Positions 7,842 to 21,508 of a stretch of 64,000 nt of DNA are shown here, one piece after another (position 1 is the first letter of the stretch; each line of letters starts with the position of its first letter). The notes beneath the pieces are model-generated. The model did not search any database. It was not told the origin of the DNA and saw nothing but the letters and a program-made list of their open reading frames with translations. Both the position numbers and the translations under genes were made by a program. The stretch lies in contig NZ_CP095848.1 in NCBI RefSeq assembly GCF_023101345.1, positions 495,501 to 559,500 on the forward strand, in the 5' to 3' direction. The stretch comes from Hymenobacter sublimis. GTDB lineage: Bacteria; Bacteroidota; Bacteroidia; Cytophagales; Hymenobacteraceae.

Positions 7842-10800
7842 CTAAGTCAGTGAATCCGCTATGTTCTCTTCTGAGGCCGTGGGTTCCGGCTCCTCCTCAT
7901 CGGGAGGCAAGGGTGCGAAGCGGCTTTTAAAGCGCGCATACAGGGCATTCATGCCCAGCAGTAGCACCCCCATCAGAATGAAAACAATGGCCCGGGTGAT
8001 GGTGCCGTGCTGCTTTAAATCAACCAGTAGCAGGCGGCCGAAGCATAGCGCCGTGCCCGCCAGAGCCGCATAGCGTAAATCTTGGCGCCGTAGCAGCAGA
8101 CTACTGATAAAGGCGGCCACCACTTCCAGCATCAGCAGCACGGTAAGCACCGACCGGTCGAAGGATTGTAGCAGCAGCAGGGTCAGCAGGGTGAAGGACG
8201 GGTACAGCAGCACAGGGATAAGTACTCGAGCCGGTAGGCGGCCCAGGGCGGCTAGTGGGGCCAGCAGGCGCGGCCAGGTAGCGGCTTGGTTGCTAGGGAA
8301 GTGCTGCAGGGCTACCGCTGAGTACGCAAAAAGTCCAATGGTTGTGGCCATTGTTGTGAGGCCCGCTAGCGTGAGCAGTTGTCCTTCCGCGAGGCGGGTG
8401 AGGGCTACGTAGCTTCCCGCCACCACGGCCGCCCCGAAAAACAGCAGCCCGTACACCCGCAGCCGTCGTAGGCGCAACGGCAGTGTTCGGCCCGCCAGTG
8501 TGAGCGTGAAAGCCGCCGCAATCCAGAGCAGGGAGTGCCACTCCAGCTGCACCTCATCCCACACCGTGAAGCTGCCAAAAAGCAGGGTAACTTCCGGCAG
8601 CAGCGGGTGCAGGTAACGCCAAGAAGTGTACACGGGAGCCGTAGCGGGCGGGCGGAATGCGGCCCAGCCAGCCAGCACTAGCAGCAGCGCCCCCGCCGTG
8701 AACCGGCGCGCCGGGATGCCCGCCAGCAGGTCAACGGAATCAGTCGCCAACAGCGTGAAGTGCCCCAGCAAAGCCAGAGAAAGCAACCCGTAGGTCAGGT
8801 GAAGCAGGAATCGGTCGGGCGAGCCGGCCCGGATGAGGGCTTCGGCGCTGGCAAAACGACCTCGCACTACCTGCGCCGCCCAGGCTAGCCCGGCGGCTAG
8901 CAGCGTCCAGGCCAGCATGGGGAGGGCTTCGGAGCGCGGGGCCAGTGCTGCCCAAGCGGCCACCAGCAACTGGGCGCCGCCTAAATACAGCCACGGCCAG
9001 CGCACGTGTTGCTGCCGCCCTTCCCACCAGGAGCAGAACAGGCCTACCATCGGCAACGCCAGCAAGGGTAGCAAGTATACAAGCACCGAGCCTGGCCGGA
9101 ACGCACTGCCCGCTGGTAGCACCTGGCTCCACTGCAACCCCTGATACCCCACGGCGGCCACCACCACTCCTAACCACAGGCCCGGAACTTTCAGCGTCCG
9201 CCGCGCCAGCAGCAGGGCGCCGCCTAAGCCGGCCGCCAGCCACCCAGCCCAGGTATGCTCATACACCAGCCCACCCGCGGCCAGCATCTGCACGCCTACC
9301 AGCAAACTCAGCAAGCGCACCCGGTAAATGGCAACGTAGGAAAGGGGAAGAACATCGTGGGCCGGAGCCTGGCGCCAGCTCAGGAGCAGTTGAGTTCCAA
9401 GGGAGGCTAGTGCGGCTCCTACGAGCAGCGCTGCCCGCCACGAATCTGGCAGGTAGCCAGTCTGGTACACAACTGCCGGCAAGGCGGCCCCCAGCGCCAG
9501 GGCGAAGTACACCAGCCCCCGGTACAGCCCCGATTCGGACTGCCACGCTAGCCACAAGGCAAATGCCAGCACTTCCGCGTATAGCAGCGTGCTAACTGCG
9601 GGCCATGATACGCCCGCTTCGTGCAGCCCGAGTATGGCGACCAGCAGCAGCAGTTGGCTCAGTGGAAGATGAGCCGCCCTAAACCAGCCGGCCCTACCCA
9701 GCAGCCCCGTTGCTAGGCTGCCCAGCGCGGCTGCCGTTCCCACAGCGCCAGCAAGTAAGAGGCCCACCGGCGGCTGCGCCAGCCCAAACAAAGCCTGAGC
9801 AAGCAGCCCGGTCCCGGTCAGGTATACCAGCACCGTGAATAGCTGCAAAGCGGTATGCAAACCCCGCTGGGAAGTTGTAGCCAGCAGCGCAGTGAAGCGG
9901 GCCAGTCGCGCCGGTAGGCTCAGCAGGCCGCTACTACTTACGCCCAGCACTACCAGTAGCAGTAGCCGCCCGTGTAGCTCCGGCGCCGGCAGTAGGCGAA
10001 ATGCGTGGGTAGTGATGAGCAGAAACCAGCCTCCTCCCACCAGAGAAACGCTGACCAGCACCCGGTAAAGCAGTAGCTCGCCAAGCCAGCCCAGTGCCCC
10101 GGCCAGCAGCAGGGTTTCTAGGTACAGCAGGGCCGTGGTAGCGGGCCAGCCCAAACCGGCCTTGTGTAACCCTACGATGGTAACCATGAGCAGCGCTTGC
10201 CCGCTAAGAAAGTGCAGACTGCGAAACCAGCCCGGAGAGCGGCGCAGCCACCAGGCTGCCCCGAATAAGGCGCCCGATGCCGCCAGCGTGCCACTTAGCA
10301 GCGCCGCTACCGGCGGATTCAGAACCCCAAATAAGGCCCGCAACAGCAGCAGCGCCGCCCCAGCATACAGGCCCCCCACCATACCGCCAAAGCCCTGGTG
10401 CAACTCTCGGCCAGCGAAGCTACCCTCCTCATCGGGGCGAAGCTGCTGCCCCACCAGGTAGAAATAGCCCGCGCCCAGCAAACCGGAAAGCAGCAGCAGA
10501 AAGGCGTTACGGTGCAGCTCAGCGGGCGAATACACCGTGATTTGACCAATATTGAGGGCTAACAGGCACCCCGCCGCCACTAGCGCCCCAACCATAGCCA
10601 CCTGCGACACAATTTTTTCCTGCTCCCGCGTCATGATAAAGGCCACGAGTAGGGTTTCCAGTAGCATAAAGAGCAGAATCAGGCTGCCCGAAGCGTGCCA
10701 GCCTTGCAAGGAGAAGGTTGCAAACAGCGCCAGAGCCAAGGAAATGATACTATCGGTGCGGAAAAGCCACGGAATACCAAGCTGCCGGGCCCGGCGGGCC

Positions 10801-12350
10801 ACCCCGAACGTTAGTAGGGCTCCTAGCCCCAGCGGTACGGTTTTCCAAGGCGAGCCAGTGCTGTACTGGTAGAGGTTGATGCCCAGGCAGGTCCAGTTCA
10901 ACACGTGCGCCGAGAACAGTAGCCCGTCAAAACGAGTAGTGGCGTACACCTTGCGGTACTGCACCACGGCGGCGGCTACTCCTGTCAGCAATACCAGGGC
11001 CATAGCGCTCAGCCGCAGACTGTTGCCGAGCGGACCTGTAGCCGCCAGGGAGTAGTGCCAGTACTGGTGAAAAACGAAAAAGCTGAGAATGCTCAACAGC
11101 AGCTGATACTTCCAGCGCTGCCGGTAGGTAATGCCGATGCTGAACGCAGTTACGCCCGCCGCCGCTGCCAGGGGGAGTAGGGTAGGCGGCAGTACCGCCA
11201 GGGCTACCAAGCTCAGCACCCCGTGCAAGGTCGCCACCGATTCGCGGCTGGCGTCCCAGGCCAGCCACAGGTTGGCCGCCACGCCGGCCAGCAACAGCAG
11301 GTAGCTGAGCGGCGCTTCGGCCCACTGCAGGCCCGGCACGCTCACGGAGCCCACGCAAGCAAACAGAAAAACCGCCGCCGCGCTGCTTTGCAGCCACACG
11401 TGCAACCGGGCCGCAAAAGGCTTAGGCCGCAGGTAATAATGCAGCCCCAGCAACAGCCCCGCAAAGGACGTTATCATGCCGAAGCGAAGCGGCGCGCTTA
11501 CCCGCAAAGCGGCATAAACGCCCAGAAAACCAATACCCGTTACGAGCACCACTGCCCCCAGAATACCGGTCCAGTTGTCCAGAATCATTTGTTCGGCTCG
11601 GTCCCACCAGGTAGGGCCGCTGGGCTCCGTCTCTTGGGGCAACGGCGGCCGCCGCGGAGGCACGGGCGGGCTAACTGGCCCTACCTTCGGTTCAGCAGGC
11701 GTAGTGAAAGCAGCTACCGGTGAGGAACCTACCGGTGCTGCCTCCGCCGGCACCGAAGTGGCCCGGACCGGAGCTTGGCTTGCAGGCTGAGAATGGGTAG
11801 TTGAAGTCGCTGAGGTTGTGGGCGGTGCAACTAGCCTTGGCTCTGGCGCTATCGGGGCTTGGAATGGCTGCGGGACTGGCGCTGTTTCCGGCGTTGTTGG
11901 GGTTGCCTCCGGGGTAGCAGTGGGAGCGGCCACGGGCGGTAGGGGTGACGCCGGTGTAGGTAAAGCCGCCTCGGTCTGGGCCGGAGGAGCGGCCGGCGCT
12001 GGGGCCGGTGGAATTACCGCCGGCGGGGCACTAGCTGGGGCCATTGGCGGTACGGCCGCCGCAGCCGGGGGGGCAGCCGGGGCCGATGCCCGGTACCACT
12101 CTCGTGGCGTAGGTGGTGCTGCCGGTACCGGCGCGGCTACCGGAGGTGGGGCAGGAGCAGCGGCTGCAGGCGGTGAGTCAGGATGTGGTAGCTGCAGTTC
12201 CTGCCGCAGGCGTTCCACGGTAGCCTGAAGTGCTTGGTGCTCGTCCTCGCGCTGCTGCAGGCGCTGGCTAAGCTCCCGCACGCGCTTGGTAAGGTCCTGG
12301 TACAGCATGGCCACCACAACGACGACCAGCACCAACAGGGAAGTACCCAT
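7842..12350 (-). CDS. Giant DUF2339 polytopic membrane protein
   Basis: 1502 residues from an ATG at 12350. Order of parts: an N-terminal hydrophobic helix, a coiled coil (LTKRVRELSQRLQQRE to about residue 55), and a roughly 190-residue low-complexity linker very rich in Pro and Ala. Then comes WWDRAEQMILDNWTGILG, the entry to the DUF2339 domain, and some 35-40 hydrophobic helices to the end. DUF2339 proteins usually have about 800-1000 residues, so this one is long. Internal segments look mutually similar (repeated AGLGWPATTALLYLETLLLA-like and GVSWPAVSTLLYAEVLAFA-like units), suggesting growth by duplication. Function is unknown in the family. The C-terminus is acidic. Confidence 0.9.
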   Translation of the reverse strand: MGTSLLVLVVVVVAMLYQDLTKRVRELSQRLQQREDEHQALQATVERLRQELQLPHPDSPPAAAAPAPPPVAAPVPAAPPTPREWYRASAPAAPPAAAAVPPMAPASAPPAVIPPAPAPAAPPAQTEAALPTPASPLPPVAAPTATPEATPTTPETAPVPQPFQAPIAPEPRLVAPPTTSATSTTHSQPASQAPVRATSVPAEAAPVGSSPVAAFTTPAEPKVGPVSPPVPPRRPPLPQETEPSGPTWWDRAEQMILDNWTGILGAVVLVTGIGFLGVYAALRVSAPLRFGMITSFAGLLLGLHYYLRPKPFAARLHVWLQSSAAAVFLFACVGSVSVPGLQWAEAPLSYLLLLAGVAANLWLAWDASRESVATLHGVLSLVALAVLPPTLLPLAAAAGVTAFSIGITYRQRWKYQLLLSILSFFVFHQYWHYSLAATGPLGNSLRLSAMALVLLTGVAAAVVQYRKVYATTRFDGLLFSAHVLNWTCLGINLYQYSTGSPWKTVPLGLGALLTFGVARRARQLGIPWLFRTDSIISLALALFATFSLQGWHASGSLILLFMLLETLLVAFIMTREQEKIVSQVAMVGALVAAGCLLALNIGQITVYSPAELHRNAFLLLLSGLLGAGYFYLVGQQLRPDEEGSFAGRELHQGFGGMVGGLYAGAALLLLRALFGVLNPPVAALLSGTLAASGALFGAAWWLRRSPGWFRSLHFLSGQALLMVTIVGLHKAGLGWPATTALLYLETLLLAGALGWLGELLLYRVLVSVSLVGGGWFLLITTHAFRLLPAPELHGRLLLLVVLGVSSSGLLSLPARLARFTALLATTSQRGLHTALQLFTVLVYLTGTGLLAQALFGLAQPPVGLLLAGAVGTAAALGSLATGLLGRAGWFRAAHLPLSQLLLLVAILGLHEAGVSWPAVSTLLYAEVLAFALWLAWQSESGLYRGLVYFALALGAALPAVVYQTGYLPDSWRAALLVGAALASLGTQLLLSWRQAPAHDVLPLSYVAIYRVRLLSLLVGVQMLAAGGLVYEHTWAGWLAAGLGGALLLARRTLKVPGLWLGVVVAAVGYQGLQWSQVLPAGSAFRPGSVLVYLLPLLALPMVGLFCSWWEGRQQHVRWPWLYLGGAQLLVAAWAALAPRSEALPMLAWTLLAAGLAWAAQVVRGRFASAEALIRAGSPDRFLLHLTYGLLSLALLGHFTLLATDSVDLLAGIPARRFTAGALLLVLAGWAAFRPPATAPVYTSWRYLHPLLPEVTLLFGSFTVWDEVQLEWHSLLWIAAAFTLTLAGRTLPLRLRRLRVYGLLFFGAAVVAGSYVALTRLAEGQLLTLAGLTTMATTIGLFAYSAVALQHFPSNQAATWPRLLAPLAALGRLPARVLIPVLLYPSFTLLTLLLLQSFDRSVLTVLLMLEVVAAFISSLLLRRQDLRYAALAGTALCFGRLLLVDLKQHGTITRAIVFILMGVLLLGMNALYARFKSRFAPLPPDEEEPEPTASEENIADSLT

Positions 12351-15212: not shown

Positions 15213-16595
15213 ATGACTTCTAAAGTAGCTCCCTTTCATCCTGGTTTCAGCCTGTTCACGCTAGGTGTCCTACTGGTGCTGGCCCTTGTTGCCGCTTTTG
15301 TGGACGTGCCACACCCCGCCGCCACTCCCGGCTCGCTCAACGGCGCCGATGTAGCCTGGATGCTCACGGCCACGGCCTTCGTGCTGATTATGACCCCAGG
15401 CTTGTCGTTTTTTTACGGGGGTATGGTGCGGCCCAAAAACGTTATCAGTACCATGCTGCAAAGCTTTGTGGCCCTGGGCGTTATTTCCGTACTGTTCTAT
15501 TTCGTAGGTTTCTCGCTCTGCTACGGCGACTCCTGGTACGGACTGATTGGTAACCCGTTCACGTTTGCCCTCCTGCGCAACGTAGGCACGGCGCCCAACC
15601 CAGCTTTTGCTGCCACCATTCCTTTCATCCTCTACTTCGCCTTTCAGCTCAAGTTTGCCATTATCACCCCGGCCCTAATTACCGGCTCCTTCGCCGAGCG
15701 GGTCCGCTTTAAGGGGTATCTGGCGTTCATGGTGCTGTTCAGCCTGTTCATCTACTGCCCCCTGGCCCACTGGACCTGGCACCCCGAAGGCTTCCTGCGC
15801 AAATGGGGCGTGCTTGATTTTGCGGGCGGCACCGTGGTGCATATTTCGGCGGGCGTGGCCGCCCTGGCCGGGGCCATGGTGCTGGGGCGCCGCTCGGCCA
15901 ATCTGCGTACCTCCTCCTTTTCAACCCCGAACGTGCCTTACGTACTACTCGGTACGGGCTTGCTGTGGTTTGGCTGGTTTGGCTTCAACGCGGGTTCGGC
16001 CCTGGGAGCCAACGAGCTGGCAGCCTTGTCCTTCGTGAACACCAACCTAGCCTCGGCAGCGGCTCTTATTGCCTGGGTCCTCATTGAGGTAGCCCGGGGT
16101 GGCAAGCCCACAGCCGTGGGTGCCTGCACCGGTGCTGTGGTGGGCCTAGTGGCCATTACCCCGGCCGCCGGCTACATCGGGTACGGGCAAAGCATCCTGT
16201 TCGGGGTGCTGGCCGCCCTAATCAGCCACGCCGCCGTGCACTGGCAAAACTCCCGCACCACCATCGACGATACCCTGGATGTATTTCCCTGCCACGGCCT
16301 GGGCGGCATTGTGGGCATGCTCCTGACGGGCGTGTTTGCTGATAAAGTTGGGCTAATCCACGGCACTTTCACCACCTTCGGCTACCACCTGCTGGGCCTG
16401 CTGATTGTTATTACCTATTCTTTCGTGGGCGCCTGGATTCTGCTGAAAATTACCGACCGCATCTTCGGCTTGCGCGTAAAAATTCAAGAAGAAGAGTTGG
16501 GGCTCGATTTAAGCCAGCACGAGGAATCAACCTACCACATCGACGAGGAATTTGAACGCACGTATCGGCGGGAGTTTGCCCCGGAAAATGCGTAG
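15213..16595 (+). CDS. amt: Ammonium transporter
   Basis: 460 residues with about 11-12 hydrophobic helices, the size of AmtB-type channels. Family motifs are GADVAWMLTATAFVLIMTPG at the start of the channel, DFAGGTVVHISAG, and the two pore histidines in DFAGGTVVH...GI-type context and FPCHGLGGIVGMLLTGVFA. The C-terminal tail is about 45 residues, hydrophilic and acidic, and is the part PII proteins (GlnK) usually contact. No glnK gene lies beside it, which is unusual because amt and glnK are often paired. It is preceded by a palindromic site and followed by a strong hairpin at 16689-16718. Confidence 0.96.
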   Translation: MTSKVAPFHPGFSLFTLGVLLVLALVAAFVDVPHPAATPGSLNGADVAWMLTATAFVLIMTPGLSFFYGGMVRPKNVISTMLQSFVALGVISVLFYFVGFSLCYGDSWYGLIGNPFTFALLRNVGTAPNPAFAATIPFILYFAFQLKFAIITPALITGSFAERVRFKGYLAFMVLFSLFIYCPLAHWTWHPEGFLRKWGVLDFAGGTVVHISAGVAALAGAMVLGRRSANLRTSSFSTPNVPYVLLGTGLLWFGWFGFNAGSALGANELAALSFVNTNLASAAALIAWVLIEVARGGKPTAVGACTGAVVGLVAITPAAGYIGYGQSILFGVLAALISHAAVHWQNSRTTIDDTLDVFPCHGLGGIVGMLLTGVFADKVGLIHGTFTTFGYHLLGLLIVITYSFVGAWILLKITDRIFGLRVKIQEEELGLDLSQHEESTYHIDEEFERTYRREFAPENA

Positions 16596-16680: not shown

Positions 16681-16688
16681 ACTACGTG

Positions 16689-16721
16689 AAGGCCACCGGC
16701 GGGGAATCCGGTGGCCTTTTT
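16689..16721. terminator. Intrinsic terminator between amt and the TPR operon
   Basis: AAGGCCACCGG (16689-16699) pairs with CCGGTGGCCTT (16708-16718) and is followed by a T run on the plus strand. It ends amt; on the minus strand it lies beyond the last gene of the TPR operon. Confidence 0.85.
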
Positions 16722-16739: not shown

Positions 16740-17948
16740 TTACAGCAAGGCTGTAGACCAGAGGTAGGCTAGCCAGGTAACGAACAGCGCCCCCACAATT
16801 CCCTTTTGCAGGTTTTCTTCCGGAAAAAACAACCCCGCCACCAATCCGGCCAGCCCTAGCCCTACTAGCACCACGGTGGCTGCCACGGCCCACCCACGGG
16901 CTTTGCGGGTGCTGTAGGGCCGCAGGGCTACCGTAACCGGAAATAAGGCCGCCAGCAAGCTGCCGCCTAACACGCCTACCCCCGCCAGGTGAGCGAAAGT
17001 TGCCGCAGTCAGCAGGAGGGTAGCGGCTAGCAGAACGCCGGCAAAAACCAGGGCCTGCCGCCGCTGGGCTGCTGAAAGAGCATGCCGACCGTAGGGGTTC
17101 AGCAGCAGCAAGCCGTTGAACATGGGGTCAGAAAACCAGCTCATAAACACCAGAGGCAGGTAAATGGGTAATAGCACGGGTACGAACCGCACCAGCACGT
17201 ACAGCCCAATGAAGAGCAGGCGCCGGGTGGCCCCGCCCAGCTTTTCCGTCCAGACGGTAAAGCGCAGAAAGGCGCGGTACAGCCAGTACTGAGCCTTCAA
17301 TGATTCTACCAGTCCTTCGCGAGCGTAGTTGGAGGTAGGCTGTCGGCGCAGGGCGTCGCGGAAGTGGTGGAGGGCCTGCTGGTGCCGGCCGGCTTCCAGG
17401 GCCACCCAGCCGGCGTCGGCGTGGGTGCCGGCATCGTCGGGGTCGTGGCGCAGGGCGGTTTCCAGCGAATCGGCCGCATCCTGGGCGCGCCCGAGGCGAG
17501 CCAGGCAACGGCCCCGCAGCCCCAGGCAATCAACATGCTCGGGGTCGTAGGCCAGGCCTAGCTCGGCGGAGCGCAGGGCGCCTTCCCACTGGCCGCGCTG
17601 AAACCGGATCAGGCCCAGGGTGTGGTGGTAATTTGGGTCGGTTGGGTCGAGGGCCAGGGCTTGCTCAATGGCCGTCAGCGCTTCCGGTAGGCGCTGCTGG
17701 CGCTGGTGAGCCAAACTCAGCAGGTAGTAGGCAAAGTCGAACTCGGGAGCCAGGCCAATGGCTGTTTCAATGTGTTCTTGCCCCTCCGGCAGTCGTCCCA
17801 AATCCAGCAAGGCCATGCCGAGCCAAGCGTGGGCCAGGGCATCATTGGGCTCCTGGTGCAGAATGCGGCGCAGCTCCTGCTCAGCCTGGGCCGCCCGGCC
17901 CTGGCGCAGTAGCAGTAAAATCCGGTCGGGCCAGTTGGCTTGTTCCAT
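16740..17948 (-). CDS. TPR protein with C-terminal multi-span membrane domain (third gene of TPR/AAA+ operon)
   Basis: 402 residues from an ATG at 17948. Residues 5-180 form about five tetratricopeptide repeats (for example HAWLGMALLDLGRLPEG and NYHHTLGLIRFQRGQWEGAL). Then comes a linker KAQYWLYRAFLRFTVWTEKL, after which some five or six hydrophobic helices run to the C-terminus. TPRs are protein-binding scaffolds, here presumably on the cytoplasmic face. The linker resembles KESFWLKRQLLRLDAWSE in the preceding gene, so the two are diverged paralogues. It starts 42 bases after that gene's stop. Function is unknown; the context suggests a membrane platform for the AAA+ ATPase encoded upstream. 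Confidence 0.88.
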   Translation of the reverse strand: MEQANWPDRILLLLRQGRAAQAEQELRRILHQEPNDALAHAWLGMALLDLGRLPEGQEHIETAIGLAPEFDFAYYLLSLAHQRQQRLPEALTAIEQALALDPTDPNYHHTLGLIRFQRGQWEGALRSAELGLAYDPEHVDCLGLRGRCLARLGRAQDAADSLETALRHDPDDAGTHADAGWVALEAGRHQQALHHFRDALRRQPTSNYAREGLVESLKAQYWLYRAFLRFTVWTEKLGGATRRLLFIGLYVLVRFVPVLLPIYLPLVFMSWFSDPMFNGLLLLNPYGRHALSAAQRRQALVFAGVLLAATLLLTAATFAHLAGVGVLGGSLLAALFPVTVALRPYSTRKARGWAVAATVVLVGLGLAGLVAGLFFPEENLQKGIVGALFVTWLAYLWSTALL

Positions 17949-17990
17949 GGAAAGAGTAGGGAGCGTCGGGAGTAATAAAAATGAGAAACG

Positions 17991-19196
17991 TTATTTGGGT
18001 AGAGAGGAAGAAGCTTTTCTCCGCTGGCGGAGCACGTTGACGCCTACGCTAACGGCCAGCAGTCCCAGCAGAACCAGGATAACCTCATCCGATACGGTAT
18101 TAAGCCACAGCCGTAATGCCACAATCAGCCCTAGCCCAAGTAGTCCTACTCCCACCTCCACAGCCACCCGGCCAATAGTTGCCTGGCGCGAGTGCTGCCG
18201 CAGCCGCTGTACGTCAGGATGCAGACGCCACTGCAGGGTGGCATAAAGCATAACCAGGAGCAAGGGCAGGCAAAACAGGGCCATCAGCGGTACCATGACC
18301 AGATACAGCTGCAGAAACGCGCGCAGCTGGCCCTTTTTCAGATCCTGCTGCACCGCTTCCGACCACGCATCAAGGCGCAGCAGCTGCCGTTTCAGCCAAA
18401 AGCTTTCCTTCGCCAGTTGCTCCAAGCCGTGGTGGGCAGCTGGCTCATGGGGCGCAAGCCGCCATAACTCCAGAAAATACCGGCGCGCTTCATCCGGCTT
18501 CCGCTGCCGCTGAGCTTCCTGGCCTAGTTGTGCTAGTAGCGGCAGTAGCTTCCGCTGAGTGCGTTCATTGGTAGGATTCAAGCGAATGGCTTCGCGAAAA
18601 TGGCCCTCTGCTACCTTTAATTGGTGGGTCCGAAGCGCTTCCTCGCCGAGCTGTGCGTGAGCTACTGCTAGGTTAGGATGCCAGCGCACTAGCTGCTGTA
18701 ACGTAACAACGGCTAATTCATAACGACCCAGGTCTTTGAGCGCCCGGATGCGTTGGTAGAGGCATTCAACGTGGCCCGGATCTAGGAATAAGCCTTGGGC
18801 AGTTGTTTCAAGCGCCGCTTCTGGGTGCTGCCTTGCATTCAGAATAACTGCCTTGTACCCTAAATAGGTGGCATTGCGGGCATTAAGTCGCAGTGCTTCC
18901 TCAATAGCCCGCAAGGCTTCGAATGGTTGCTCGTTACGCAGCAACCAGACGCTGTGGAAGTAATGCGCGTCGGGTTGTTGCGGGTCAAGCGCAATAGCCT
19001 CCCGAATAGCGGCCAGGGCCTCCGCGTTGCGGTTACGCTGGTTGAGTAGCACTAGGCCCAACAACTCATGCGCGGCAGCTTCCTGGGGGTTGATGGCCAG
19101 CCGGTGCCGCAAGAGTTGCTCCGCTTGCTCCGGCCGGCGCACGGCTAGTAGGTGCTGTACGGTTTCCTGCCACCGGGTATGCTCGGCGTGCTTCAT
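17991..19196 (-). CDS. TPR protein with three C-terminal transmembrane helices (second gene of TPR/AAA+ operon)
   Basis: 401 residues from an ATG at 19196. Residues 10-270 hold roughly seven TPR units, for example EAAAHELLGLVLLNQRNRN and AHAQLGEEALRTHQLKVAEG. The linker motif KESFWLKRQLLRLDAWSEAV follows at about 280. Three hydrophobic helices lie between about 300 and 390 (VMVPLMALFCLPLLLVML; VGVGLLGLGLIVALRLWL; VILVLLGLLAVSVGVNVL), and the tail is basic. It begins 18 bases after the AAA+ gene stop, so they are almost certainly co-transcribed. No enzyme motif is present. I do not know a named family for this architecture. Confidence 0.88.
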   Translation of the reverse strand: MKHAEHTRWQETVQHLLAVRRPEQAEQLLRHRLAINPQEAAAHELLGLVLLNQRNRNAEALAAIREAIALDPQQPDAHYFHSVWLLRNEQPFEALRAIEEALRLNARNATYLGYKAVILNARQHPEAALETTAQGLFLDPGHVECLYQRIRALKDLGRYELAVVTLQQLVRWHPNLAVAHAQLGEEALRTHQLKVAEGHFREAIRLNPTNERTQRKLLPLLAQLGQEAQRQRKPDEARRYFLELWRLAPHEPAAHHGLEQLAKESFWLKRQLLRLDAWSEAVQQDLKKGQLRAFLQLYLVMVPLMALFCLPLLLVMLYATLQWRLHPDVQRLRQHSRQATIGRVAVEVGVGLLGLGLIVALRLWLNTVSDEVILVLLGLLAVSVGVNVLRQRRKASSSLPK

Positions 19197-19214
19197 GGCT
19201 TTCTGGTCCTGCAG

Positions 19215-20615
19215 CTATGCCGAGGGCTTTTTGATGCCCAAATACACCAGAATGTCGTCATAGATGCCACCTTCGTTGGAGTACAGCGCGTAGTTTTTGG
19301 CCGTGGCAAACCACTCGCGGGTGCTGGGCTTCACTTTGCCGGCTGCCTCAGCTAAGGTTGCGTGCTCGAGGGGTAGGGGCTTGCCGGCCTTCATCGATTC
19401 GCGCAGGCGGGTTTCAATGGCTACGTCTACTACGGCCTGCAAGTCGGCGCCGGAAAAGCCAGCGGTTTGGCCGGCCAGCTTGCGCAGGTTTACGGATGGC
19501 GCTACCGGCTTACCCTGCAACAATACGCCCAGCACAGCCTCGCGGGCCGCCTCATCGGGGGGCGTAACCAGCAGAATCCGGTCGAAGCGGCCGGGGCGGC
19601 GGAAGGCAGAATCGAGGTGCCAGGGGGCGTTGGTAGCGGCCAGAATCAGGACGCCCTCATTGGAGCGGGTAGCCCCGTCCAGCTCCGAAAGAAACTGGTT
19701 GATGACGGTGCGGCCCGCACTCTGGCGCAAATCGTGGCGGTTGGCGGCTAGGGCGTCCACTTCGTCGAAAAACAGCACGCACGGCGCTTGCAAGCGGGCC
19801 TGCTCGAATAGCTGGTGCAGGTTTCGCTCACTATTGCCCAGCCACATATCCAGAATGTCGTTGATACCGACGTGGATAAAGCTGGCCTGCACCTCGCCGG
19901 CCGTGGCCCTTGCCAGGTAGGTTTTGCCGCAGCCGGGCGGGCCGTACAGGAGCATGCCGCCACCGGCCGCCTTGCCGTAGGCTTTGTACAGTTCGGGAAA
20001 CTGCAGCGGATGAATGATTTTCAGCCGGATTTCCTCCTTGATGCTTTCCATACCGCCCACGTCGGCAAACGTAATTTTGGGCCGCTCCAGTCCGCTGAAC
20101 AGGGTGTGCTCAATGGCACTGAAGTCGTCGTCTTCAGGGGTAGTACTGCCCAGGCCGCCCGGAAAAGTAGCGGGTGCACCGCCGTGGGCCGGCTGCGCCG
20201 TTTGGCCCCCCCGCAAGCGGCTGGCTAGCTCGGCGTCTTCCAGGGTGGGGTTGTAGGTAAGGGCGGTAGCGTAGGCCTCGCGGGCAGCCGGCAGCTGGTC
20301 GGCGGCTAGTAGCAGGCGGGCGTGGAGTAGGTGGGCTCGGGCGTGCTCCGGGTGGGTGCCCAACAGCTCCTCTACTACCACAAAGGCGGCCGAGGATTTG
20401 CCTAGCTCGGCGTATGCTTCGGCCAAACCCAACTGCAACTCGGCGTCGTTGGGGGCTTGGCGCAGGCCGGTGCGGTATAGTTCTTCGGCCTCGGCAAAGC
20501 GCCCGGCCTGGGTGAGCAGGCTGGCCACGTGCTTGCGCAAGGGGAGGTTATCGGGCGAGAAGGATAGGGCTTCCAGTAGCGGTTGAATAGCGGACGAGTT
20601 GGGGGTAGCGGACAT
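19215..20615 (-). CDS. TPR-AAA+ ATPase (first gene of operon), Vps4/Msp1-like pore loop
   Basis: 466 residues from the ATG at 20615; an in-frame TTG six bases upstream is less likely. Residues 1-130 are TPR-like helices. A Gly/Ala/Pro linker leads to one classical AAA domain. Walker A is GPPGCGKT at about 225-232. The pore loop is NDILDMWLGNSE (Trp about 258). Walker B is VLFFDEVDAL at about 280, sensor 1 is AATNAPW, and paired arginine fingers lie in FRRPGRFDR at about 339-346. The Trp-hydrophobic-Gly pore loop is the form used by Vps4, spastin, Msp1 and the p97 D2 ring to pull polypeptides. There is no protease domain. Downstream genes encode two membrane-anchored TPR proteins, suggesting membrane-linked remodelling or extraction; the substrate is unknown. 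Confidence 0.92.
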   Translation of the reverse strand: MSATPNSSAIQPLLEALSFSPDNLPLRKHVASLLTQAGRFAEAEELYRTGLRQAPNDAELQLGLAEAYAELGKSSAAFVVVEELLGTHPEHARAHLLHARLLLAADQLPAAREAYATALTYNPTLEDAELASRLRGGQTAQPAHGGAPATFPGGLGSTTPEDDDFSAIEHTLFSGLERPKITFADVGGMESIKEEIRLKIIHPLQFPELYKAYGKAAGGGMLLYGPPGCGKTYLARATAGEVQASFIHVGINDILDMWLGNSERNLHQLFEQARLQAPCVLFFDEVDALAANRHDLRQSAGRTVINQFLSELDGATRSNEGVLILAATNAPWHLDSAFRRPGRFDRILLVTPPDEAAREAVLGVLLQGKPVAPSVNLRKLAGQTAGFSGADLQAVVDVAIETRLRESMKAGKPLPLEHATLAEAAGKVKPSTREWFATAKNYALYSNEGGIYDDILVYLGIKKPSA

Positions 20616-20707: not shown

Positions 20708-21508
20708 TTACCCACCCATTTTGCTTAGTACAAACGATACCAAAAAGCCGAGTACGGTGATAAGGCCCGTGAAATTGTGGGCTACCTCAAACGCTTCCGG
20801 AATCATGGTGTCGGCAATCATGGCCAGTACTGCCCCCGCCGACACGGCCGTGGTAGCGGCCACTACCTCCGCCGAAAAACCGCTGAACAGGGAGTAGCCC
20901 GCCAGGGAAGCCAGGCCCGAAATAAGGGCAATGCTGGCCCAAAGGCCCAGCACGTAGGTGGGCGTGCGGCCGGCCTTACGCATGCCGGCGGCGCTGCTCA
21001 GGCCCTCAGGTAAGTTGCTCATAAAAATGGCTACCACCGCCGCCACACTCACGCCGCCTCCGGCCAGCATGCTCAGGCCAATGACAATGCTTTCCGGTAT
21101 GCCATCGAGCAGGGCCCCGATGGCTAGGGCCATGCCGTTATCGTCGCCGGCGCTGCTGGCTTCCTTTTGGCCCTGTTGCACGGCGGCCCGCTCCTGACTC
21201 TGGTGCTCACCGGAGCGCTTGCGGTGTTTGGCTCCGTGGCGGGCCAGCAGCCAATTGGCCAGCGTGTACACCGCTGCGCCGCCCACAAAGCCGATGGCCG
21301 TGGAGTCGAAGCCGCCTTTTTCGTACGCCTCCGCCATCAACTCGAAGGAGAGCGTAGAAATCAGGACGCCGCTGCCAAAGGCCATAACGGCGGCAATCAG
21401 GCGTTGCGGAACGTGGGCAAAGTAGCCTACGGCGGCACCCAGCAGCAGGGCGGAGCCCGATACCAGCCCCCAAAAGCCAGCTACGGCCCAGGTAGGAAAA
21501 TGCATCAT
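20708..21508 (-). CDS. ZIP-family metal transporter
   Basis: 266 residues with about eight hydrophobic helices and a variable charged loop around residues 90-120 (His/Lys/Glu rich), the ZIP layout. Metal-site motifs are DGIPESIVIGLSML and FMSNLPEGLSSAAGM, matching the family's TM4/TM5 signatures. ZIP proteins carry zinc or other divalent ions into the cytoplasm; specificity cannot be told here. Two ATG codons at 21508 and 21505 are both usable. No metal-responsive regulator gene lies nearby. Confidence 0.9.
   Translation of the reverse strand: MMHFPTWAVAGFWGLVSGSALLLGAAVGYFAHVPQRLIAAVMAFGSGVLISTLSFELMAEAYEKGGFDSTAIGFVGGAAVYTLANWLLARHGAKHRKRSGEHQSQERAAVQQGQKEASSAGDDNGMALAIGALLDGIPESIVIGLSMLAGGGVSVAAVVAIFMSNLPEGLSSAAGMRKAGRTPTYVLGLWASIALISGLASLAGYSLFSGFSAEVVAATTAVSAGAVLAMIADTMIPEAFEVAHNFTGLITVLGFLVSFVLSKMGG

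Follow-up and report, generated by a model that had tools for sequence, protein, structure and literature searches.

A conserved pair of a TPR-AAA ATPase and a TPR-membrane protein in Hymenobacter sublimis: a candidate membrane-associated extraction or remodelling machine

The subject of this study is a group of three genes of Hymenobacter sublimis within a 64,000-nucleotide stretch of its genome (assembly GCF_023101345.1, contig NZ_CP095848.1, positions 495,501 to 559,500 of the forward strand), referred to here as the window and numbered from its first letter. Three minus-strand open reading frames (ORFs) lie head to tail at 16740-20615 and encode an AAA-type ATPase with N-terminal tetratricopeptide repeats (TPRs), followed after 18 bases by a TPR protein with predicted transmembrane (TM) segments (protein 2) and, after a further 42 bases, by another (protein 3). 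The original prediction, made from the sequence alone, had described these genes as a candidate three-gene, membrane-linked unfoldase system of a kind not yet described, and its coordinates and spacings proved correct on recheck. The genes are:

19215-20615, minus strand: TPR-AAA ATPase, 466 amino acids, with TPRs at about 6-125, a low-confidence linker at 138-172, a p97-D2-like AAA module at about 176-412 and a conserved C-terminal tail at 413-466.
17991-19196, minus strand: TPR protein 2, 401 amino acids, with three predicted C-terminal TM segments; an extra paralogue, found mainly in Hymenobacter.
16740-17948, minus strand: TPR-membrane protein 3, the partner in the conserved pair, 402 amino acids, with a TPR superhelix at 1-204, a conserved juxtamembrane linker at 205-238 and five to six TM helices at 239-401.

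The species genomes of GTDB were scanned with the ATPase alone, and the best 80 of at least 451 related places (E 1e-3) were kept; the full set probably includes other AAA families and, because only the best 80 were retained, the sample leans to close relatives, the nearest being an H. glacieicola record with an ATPase 94% identical to that of the window. The 80 relatives nevertheless span Bacteroidota, Cyanobacteriota, Verrucomicrobiota, Planctomycetota, Chloroflexota and Calditrichota. The ATPase was not found widely without TPR-membrane genes, an outcome that the original prediction had named as refuting it: among these 80, a same-strand downstream TPR protein with at least two TM windows, resembling protein 3, was present in 75, four loci break off where the contig ends (in two, the beginning of the partner is still visible) and one is without it. 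The partner sequence was found elsewhere in all four genomes with truncated loci (L065, L069, L070 and L082). With start codons picked by script, the first ATPase/partner junction is an overlap of 1 or 4 bases in 28 of the 75 loci and falls within 102 bases in 67, the remaining eight gaps spanning 141-1693 bases. In L065, whose record bears the name of a Klebsiella pneumoniae metagenome-assembled genome (MAG), the ATPase is 58% identical to that of the window and the beginning of a partner comes after it; the record is probably a mislabelled bin.

The three-gene make-up was not borne out. A single TPR-membrane gene is present in 47 of the 53 evaluable loci outside Hymenobacter, and we therefore regard the second such gene of the window as an extra paralogue; additional copies occur in 18 of 22 Hymenobacter loci compared with 6/53 elsewhere. 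The core is thus the pair of ATPase and partner, and the trio a local expansion, mainly in Hymenobacter. Nor could a third conserved gene be recognized when 786 flanking ORFs were clustered: among the 25 largest clusters none besides the pair extended beyond 10 of the 58 loci outside Hymenobacter. The cluster present at 10 loci consists, by its coordinates, of reverse-strand shadow ORFs, and the next, of pyridoxal-phosphate enzymes, reaches 6/58.

Co-occurrence and the trees give the same picture of a lasting association. In the genome profile searches (samples of Bacteroidota, of Hymenobacter and of the cyanobacterial and planctomycete phyla), 8 or 14 first-pass candidates were scored per genome. 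Among 120 Hymenobacter genomes, the ATPase profile matched 52 and the partner profile matched 52, and these were the same 52 (the lists were compared by eye); in a few genomes a partner copy stands away from the ATPase (G274, G253 and, on another contig, G286), and G210 has a match to the AAA half of the ATPase only. Trees of the ATPase and of the partner, built from 75 pairs, have 42 of 72 splits in common, against a mean of 0.19 and a maximum of 2 in 1000 label shuffles, and the distances of the two proteins correlate outside Hymenobacter (r 0.80, 53 pairs, 0/1000 permutations); shared species history explains part of this agreement. The ATPase tree of 60 rows, which leaves out fifteen Hymenobacter rows and has many weakly supported deep forks, clusters strongly by phylum: the six groups taken as one need 5 changes, where shuffling gives a mean of 32 (taken singly, Bacteroidota 1, Cyanobacteriota 1, Verrucomicrobiota 2 and Planctomycetota 3, two of the last forced by supported branches). 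This clustering, taken with the sparse occurrence of the system among Bacteroidota (4/198 sampled genomes), suggests that the pair is old and has come down mainly by vertical descent with frequent loss.

Independent samples extend the pair to at least seven phyla, Actinomycetota included. In the cyanobacterial-phylum sample the ATPase was matched in 14/194 genomes (centre genome included) and the partner adjoins it in 13 of these, one of them cut by a contig end; in the fourteenth (G415) the partner is absent within approximately 9 kb, and a full-length copy (565 bits) lies 3.8 Mb away. The planctomycete-phylum sample gave ATPase matches in 43/199 genomes (centre included); loci were available for 30 of 44 matches, and among these 30 an adjoining partner match was seen in 29, one locus being cut by the contig; several of the weakest matches are without the C-terminal tail and probably belong to other AAA families. 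Four actinobacterial entries were examined from the matches in a plasmid collection. A four-base overlap joins the ATPase gene to the TPR gene on two Streptomyces plasmids and one Actinomyces plasmid, and a full TPR-AAA gene to a TPR-TM gene in Nonomuraea; the actinobacterial partners match the partner profile more weakly, at 55-217 bits. As a control, a partner-profile match was found beside 0/80 viral-contig AAA loci at E 1e-15, these loci belonging by profile mostly to other AAA families. Two viral contigs carry ATPases that may be recorded separately: IMGVR_UViG_3300035102_000171 (L230 4001-4780) encodes a classical-type AAA ATPase (320 bits with the ATPase profile) whose N-terminal part is helical and, by eye, resembles that of MIT/Vps4 proteins, and IMGVR_UViG_3300000571_000007 (L231 38-1639) a tandem-AAA protein, Cdc48-like by eye, with two AAA matches (400 bits).

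Five of the 14 cyanobacterial-phylum matches, all in small genomes, show a reduced form of the ATPase that has no TPRs and yet retains the C-terminal tail and the adjoining TPR protein, which has two TM windows in four of the loci and is cut by the contig end in L171. Because the reduced form keeps its partner, the ATPase's own TPRs are evidently not what ties the pair together. In all five of these loci (L202-L206) a UvrD-like helicase gene lies within approximately 5 kb of the pair. Between the helicase and the reduced pair, four of the loci encode a short protein with YGYNANGDYVPT-type repeats, and genes resembling those of toxins or restriction systems occur in some; all of these identities were judged by eye. 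We rejected the helicase as a general partner, since no such cluster was found in the other phyla and the five genomes look closely related.

The ATPase is a member of the classical AAA superfamily, in which Pfam lists AAA, AAA_lid_3 and TPRs at E 1e-3 (PF00004, 137.5 bits against a cut-off of 21.2; AAA_lid_3, 37.1 against 27.2). The roles of its motor residues were assigned from general AAA knowledge, and on that assumption Walker A (K231/T232), Walker B (D284/E285), sensor 1 (N329) and both Arg fingers (R340/R343) are identical in all 44 aligned members, as is Gly260 of the pore loop, which follows the pattern W/Y-hydrophobic-G with Trp in 37 members and Tyr in seven. The list of motor residues in the original prediction was accordingly correct, only the pore-loop Trp being less than invariant. 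The closest structural match to the AAA module is the D2 module of p97 (Z 28.6, rmsd 2.1 Å over 266 residues, 40% identity), an enzyme whose aromatic pore loops thread polypeptides. The C-terminal tail is conserved to the same degree as the lid (0.613 and 0.605, respectively), with W435, N441, N447, G450, Y452 and D453 identical in 44/44 sequences. Hydropathy analysis gave no TM window in the chain, and the linker at 138-172 falls below a pLDDT of 50 in the AlphaFold model.

Proteins 2 and 3 gave only TPR or TPR-like models in Pfam at E 1e-3. Their common ancestry and shared linker, proposed in the original prediction, were confirmed (31% identity across 317 alignment columns, linker included; E 4e-30), and the three and about five to six C-terminal TM helices proposed there compare well with three and five hydropathy windows and with the AlphaFold model of protein 3 (pLDDT 93), in which the C-terminal part forms five long helices, with a sixth, broken one at 322-341. 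Counts of TM windows in the partner range from one or two in the smallest forms, through two to four in Actinomycetota, to five to six in protein 3, and conservation is lowest in TM3-6 (0.385) and highest in the last TPRs and the juxtamembrane linker (0.56-0.59). Because the TM count varies and the distal TM part is the least conserved, these comparisons favour a membrane part that serves as an anchor rather than as a channel or transporter; the Foldseek and VIA lists for protein 3 are filled by TPR structures and so are silent on the fold of this part. Three to four diverged TPR-membrane paralogues stand in tandem behind a single ATPase gene in L023-L025 and L084, possibly as a specificity repertoire, and the tandem paralogues of Hymenobacter (17991-19196 and others) probably give extra client specificity.

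On these sequence comparisons the motor residues are intact, membrane helices are predicted and the linkage of the two genes is long-lasting. Because aromatic-pore AAA rings thread polypeptides, and because the partner supplies the membrane link that the ATPase lacks, we infer a membrane-docked unfoldase, and the reading that we favour by a little is a membrane-associated extraction or remodelling machine made up of a threading unfoldase and a TPR-membrane anchor or adaptor acting in trans. The ATPase would assemble into a single p97-D2-like hexameric ring, and ATP would drive the threading of polypeptides through its aromatic pore loops. Protein 3 would be its dedicated partner: with its TPRs as a scaffold in the cytosol and a helical hairpin or bundle fixing it to the membrane, it may bind the ring directly and bring it to the membrane, or present membrane-bound clients to it, or both. 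The pair would then extract or remodel its presumed substrates like Msp1/ATAD1, or like Cdc48 together with a membrane adaptor, the difference being that a separate protein carries the anchor; the direction of pulling is likewise presumed. Since ATPases without TPRs still have the partner, docking might involve the AAA core, or else the conserved C-terminal tail, possibly in the TPR groove of the partner. The fuller proposal, that of an ancient, unnamed bacterial machine for membrane-protein extraction or remodelling in which an anchorless p97-D2-like ring is docked in this way, is put forward tentatively, as somewhat likelier to be wrong than right. What has stood of the undescribed TPR-AAA/membrane system as originally conceived is its conservation, its threading-type residues and its membrane TPR partner; the three genes have not, and the ATPase's TPRs are dispensable for pairing.

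Several observations weigh against a dedicated threading machine of this kind. A cyanobacterial MAG (L034) has the ATPase, with no TPR-membrane ORF in the 2 kb downstream and no partner genome-wide at E 1e-25, and five planctomycete loci show a TPR gene upstream only, not downstream, within the stretch seen. The system is also dispensable, a match being absent in 68/120 Hymenobacter genomes and present in four of the 198 sampled Bacteroidota, the genome under study among them. Protein 3 gave no match to the plasmids by tblastn at 1e-15, so that outside the core phyla the partner is recognized by profile only, and its TPR fold is of a generic type and gives no hint of a ligand. His replaces the pore-loop aromatic in every one of the five reduced forms, which weakens the case for strict threading in that branch. 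Finally, AlphaFold confidence for the ATPase is moderate (pLDDT 82, pTM 0.59), and binding, hexamer formation, threading and clients are all drawn from sequence and models.

The main rival is that the TPR-membrane protein is the client, forming membrane assemblies that the ATPase takes apart for recycling, much as Vps4 takes ESCRT-III assemblies apart. The dedicated pairing without a further gene conserved across phyla, the congruent trees and the tandem membrane-protein paralogues beside a single ATPase gene all suit an enzyme and its client as well as they do an enzyme and its adaptor, and Vps4 is a close structural neighbour (Z 26.1). However, at E 1e-3 Pfam reports neither Vps4_C nor MIT in the ATPase, the CdvC model, with a cut-off of 650 bits, gives 172, and the TPR-membrane proteins give only TPR-type models in Pfam; we consider this explanation unlikely, although it is the strongest competitor. 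Less probable again, in our view, is that the ATPase acts on a membrane complex as an assembly chaperone or as a switch, in the way of MoxR, NSF or EccA and without processive threading. The TPR-AAA architecture does recall EccA of type VII secretion, in which TPRs precede the AAA module in the same order, and the His of the reduced forms would suit such a role, but the match to the EccA family model is weak (36 bits against a cut-off of 467), the AAA module is classical and p97-D2-like with an aromatic pore loop in all 44 aligned members, and across phyla it is the pair alone that recurs as gene families.

Models of IetA were the best PADLOC matches to the ATPase (119.7 bits) and some reduced-form loci lie near toxin- or restriction-like genes (by eye), which could point to a defence or conflict module related to IetA. 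We think this very improbable: the NCBIfam IteA/IetA model scores 117 bits against a cut-off of 510, the downstream gene encodes a TPR-membrane protein whereas the partner of IetA is a protease, the clustering of the ATPase tree by phylum suggests mostly vertical descent, and no partner stood beside the viral-contig AAA loci. That common, unrelated TPR and AAA genes have simply fallen together might be argued from the abundance of TPR proteins (six genomes gave 13-59 profile matches each at 1e-12), but such a coincidence is scarcely credible and was rejected, being refuted by the adjacency in 75/80 loci, the presence in the same 52/120 Hymenobacter genomes, the congruent trees, the joint absence and the viral-contig control.

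The surroundings of the operon include three further features:

16688-16719, plus strand: terminator-like hairpin between the convergent neighbour gene and the operon (pattern match only).
15213-16595, plus strand: flanking gene on one side of the empty site, ammonium-transporter-like by eye.
20708-21508, minus strand: flanking gene on the other side of the empty site, with a sub-cut-off match to a zinc transporter ZupT model.

The two flanking genes were sought in 20 Hymenobacter genomes, 15 without the operon and five with it. They adjoin each other, with 108 to 240 bases between match ends, in four of the 15 (G166, G217, G218 and G219), which thus have an empty site; in G203 they are far apart, and ten genomes are without a match to at least one of them. 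The operon lies between both flanking genes in three of the five (G209, G226 and G265) and, in G199, beside the transporter gene, the match to the other flank being absent. In the genome G211 (C1:2364948-2373387; not to be confused with locus L211) the flanks adjoin each other and the operon lies approximately 2 kb outside; the site is therefore not fixed and has shifted at least once near the flanking genes. A promoter scan of the operon gave no sigma-70-type match, the sigma-70 consensus being uninformative in this phylum. Elsewhere in the window, a minus-strand ORF of 1502 amino acids (7842-12350) has a Pro/Ala-rich N-terminal part and hydrophobic segments; Pfam gives it no match at 1e-6, and its NCBIfam matches all fall below the cut-offs.

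Dislocation of membrane proteins by a bacterial AAA machine is best known from FtsH, which also degrades them. If the proposal is true, a protease-free p97-like ring with a dedicated membrane partner would represent an as yet unexplored branch of how bacteria control membrane quality or remodel complexes, and the bacterial equivalent of Msp1, or of Cdc48 and its membrane adaptors, in cyanobacteria, planctomycetes and Streptomyces among at least seven phyla. The pair is small (two core genes) and occurs in groups with genetically tractable members, and its natural presence and absence among sister species would aid testing.

We found no description of the pair in the open-access literature, the only literature searched; it is a p97-like AAA motor and membrane partner whose make-up is without a description there. 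Sections of a survey of conflict systems treat MoxR- and FtsH-containing systems and do not describe the pair (PMC7159879). Membership of an already characterized system, which the original prediction had named as a ground for refutation, was addressed with curated AAA family models, all of which score far below their cut-offs. FtsH, a classical AAA protein like the ATPase, provides the second-best family model (212 bits against a cut-off of 600), but has an M41 zinc-protease domain and an N-terminal TM segment in its chain, neither of which is found here. PAN and the proteasome ATPases (207 bits against 500) carry a C-terminal HbYX motif, whereas the ATPase chain ends IKKPSA. Vps4/CdvC (of the meiotic clade), EccA and IetA resemble it in structure, in domain order and in distant AAA similarity, respectively, and differ in the features weighed above.

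Msp1, according to passages of PMC7018516, is a classical AAA ring with aromatic pore loops that threads polypeptides. Msp1/ATAD1 and the ATPase have in common a single classical AAA ring, an aromatic pore loop and, by inference for the ATPase, action at the membrane, but the N-terminal TM helix of Msp1/ATAD1 has no counterpart in a chain that carries TPRs in its place and whose anchor is on a separate TPR protein. The likeness to the Cdc48/p97 D2 module, with which the actinobacterial Cpa is grouped, comprises approximately 40% identity in the AAA module, the aromatic pore loop and both Arg fingers; Cpa is described, in the parts of PMC6017811 consulted, as having an N-domain and two AAA modules. 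With Cdc48/p97 the ATPase shares the D2-type AAA fold, the aromatic pore loop and the two Arg fingers, but Pfam at E 1e-3 shows one AAA module in it rather than two and lists no N-domain, and the NCBIfam CDC48 model scores 222 bits against a cut-off of 803. Every narrower AAA family considered thus fails at least one tested feature, and, unlike Cdc48/p97, the ATPase described here has N-terminal TPRs, a conserved C-terminal tail of its own and a dedicated membrane partner.

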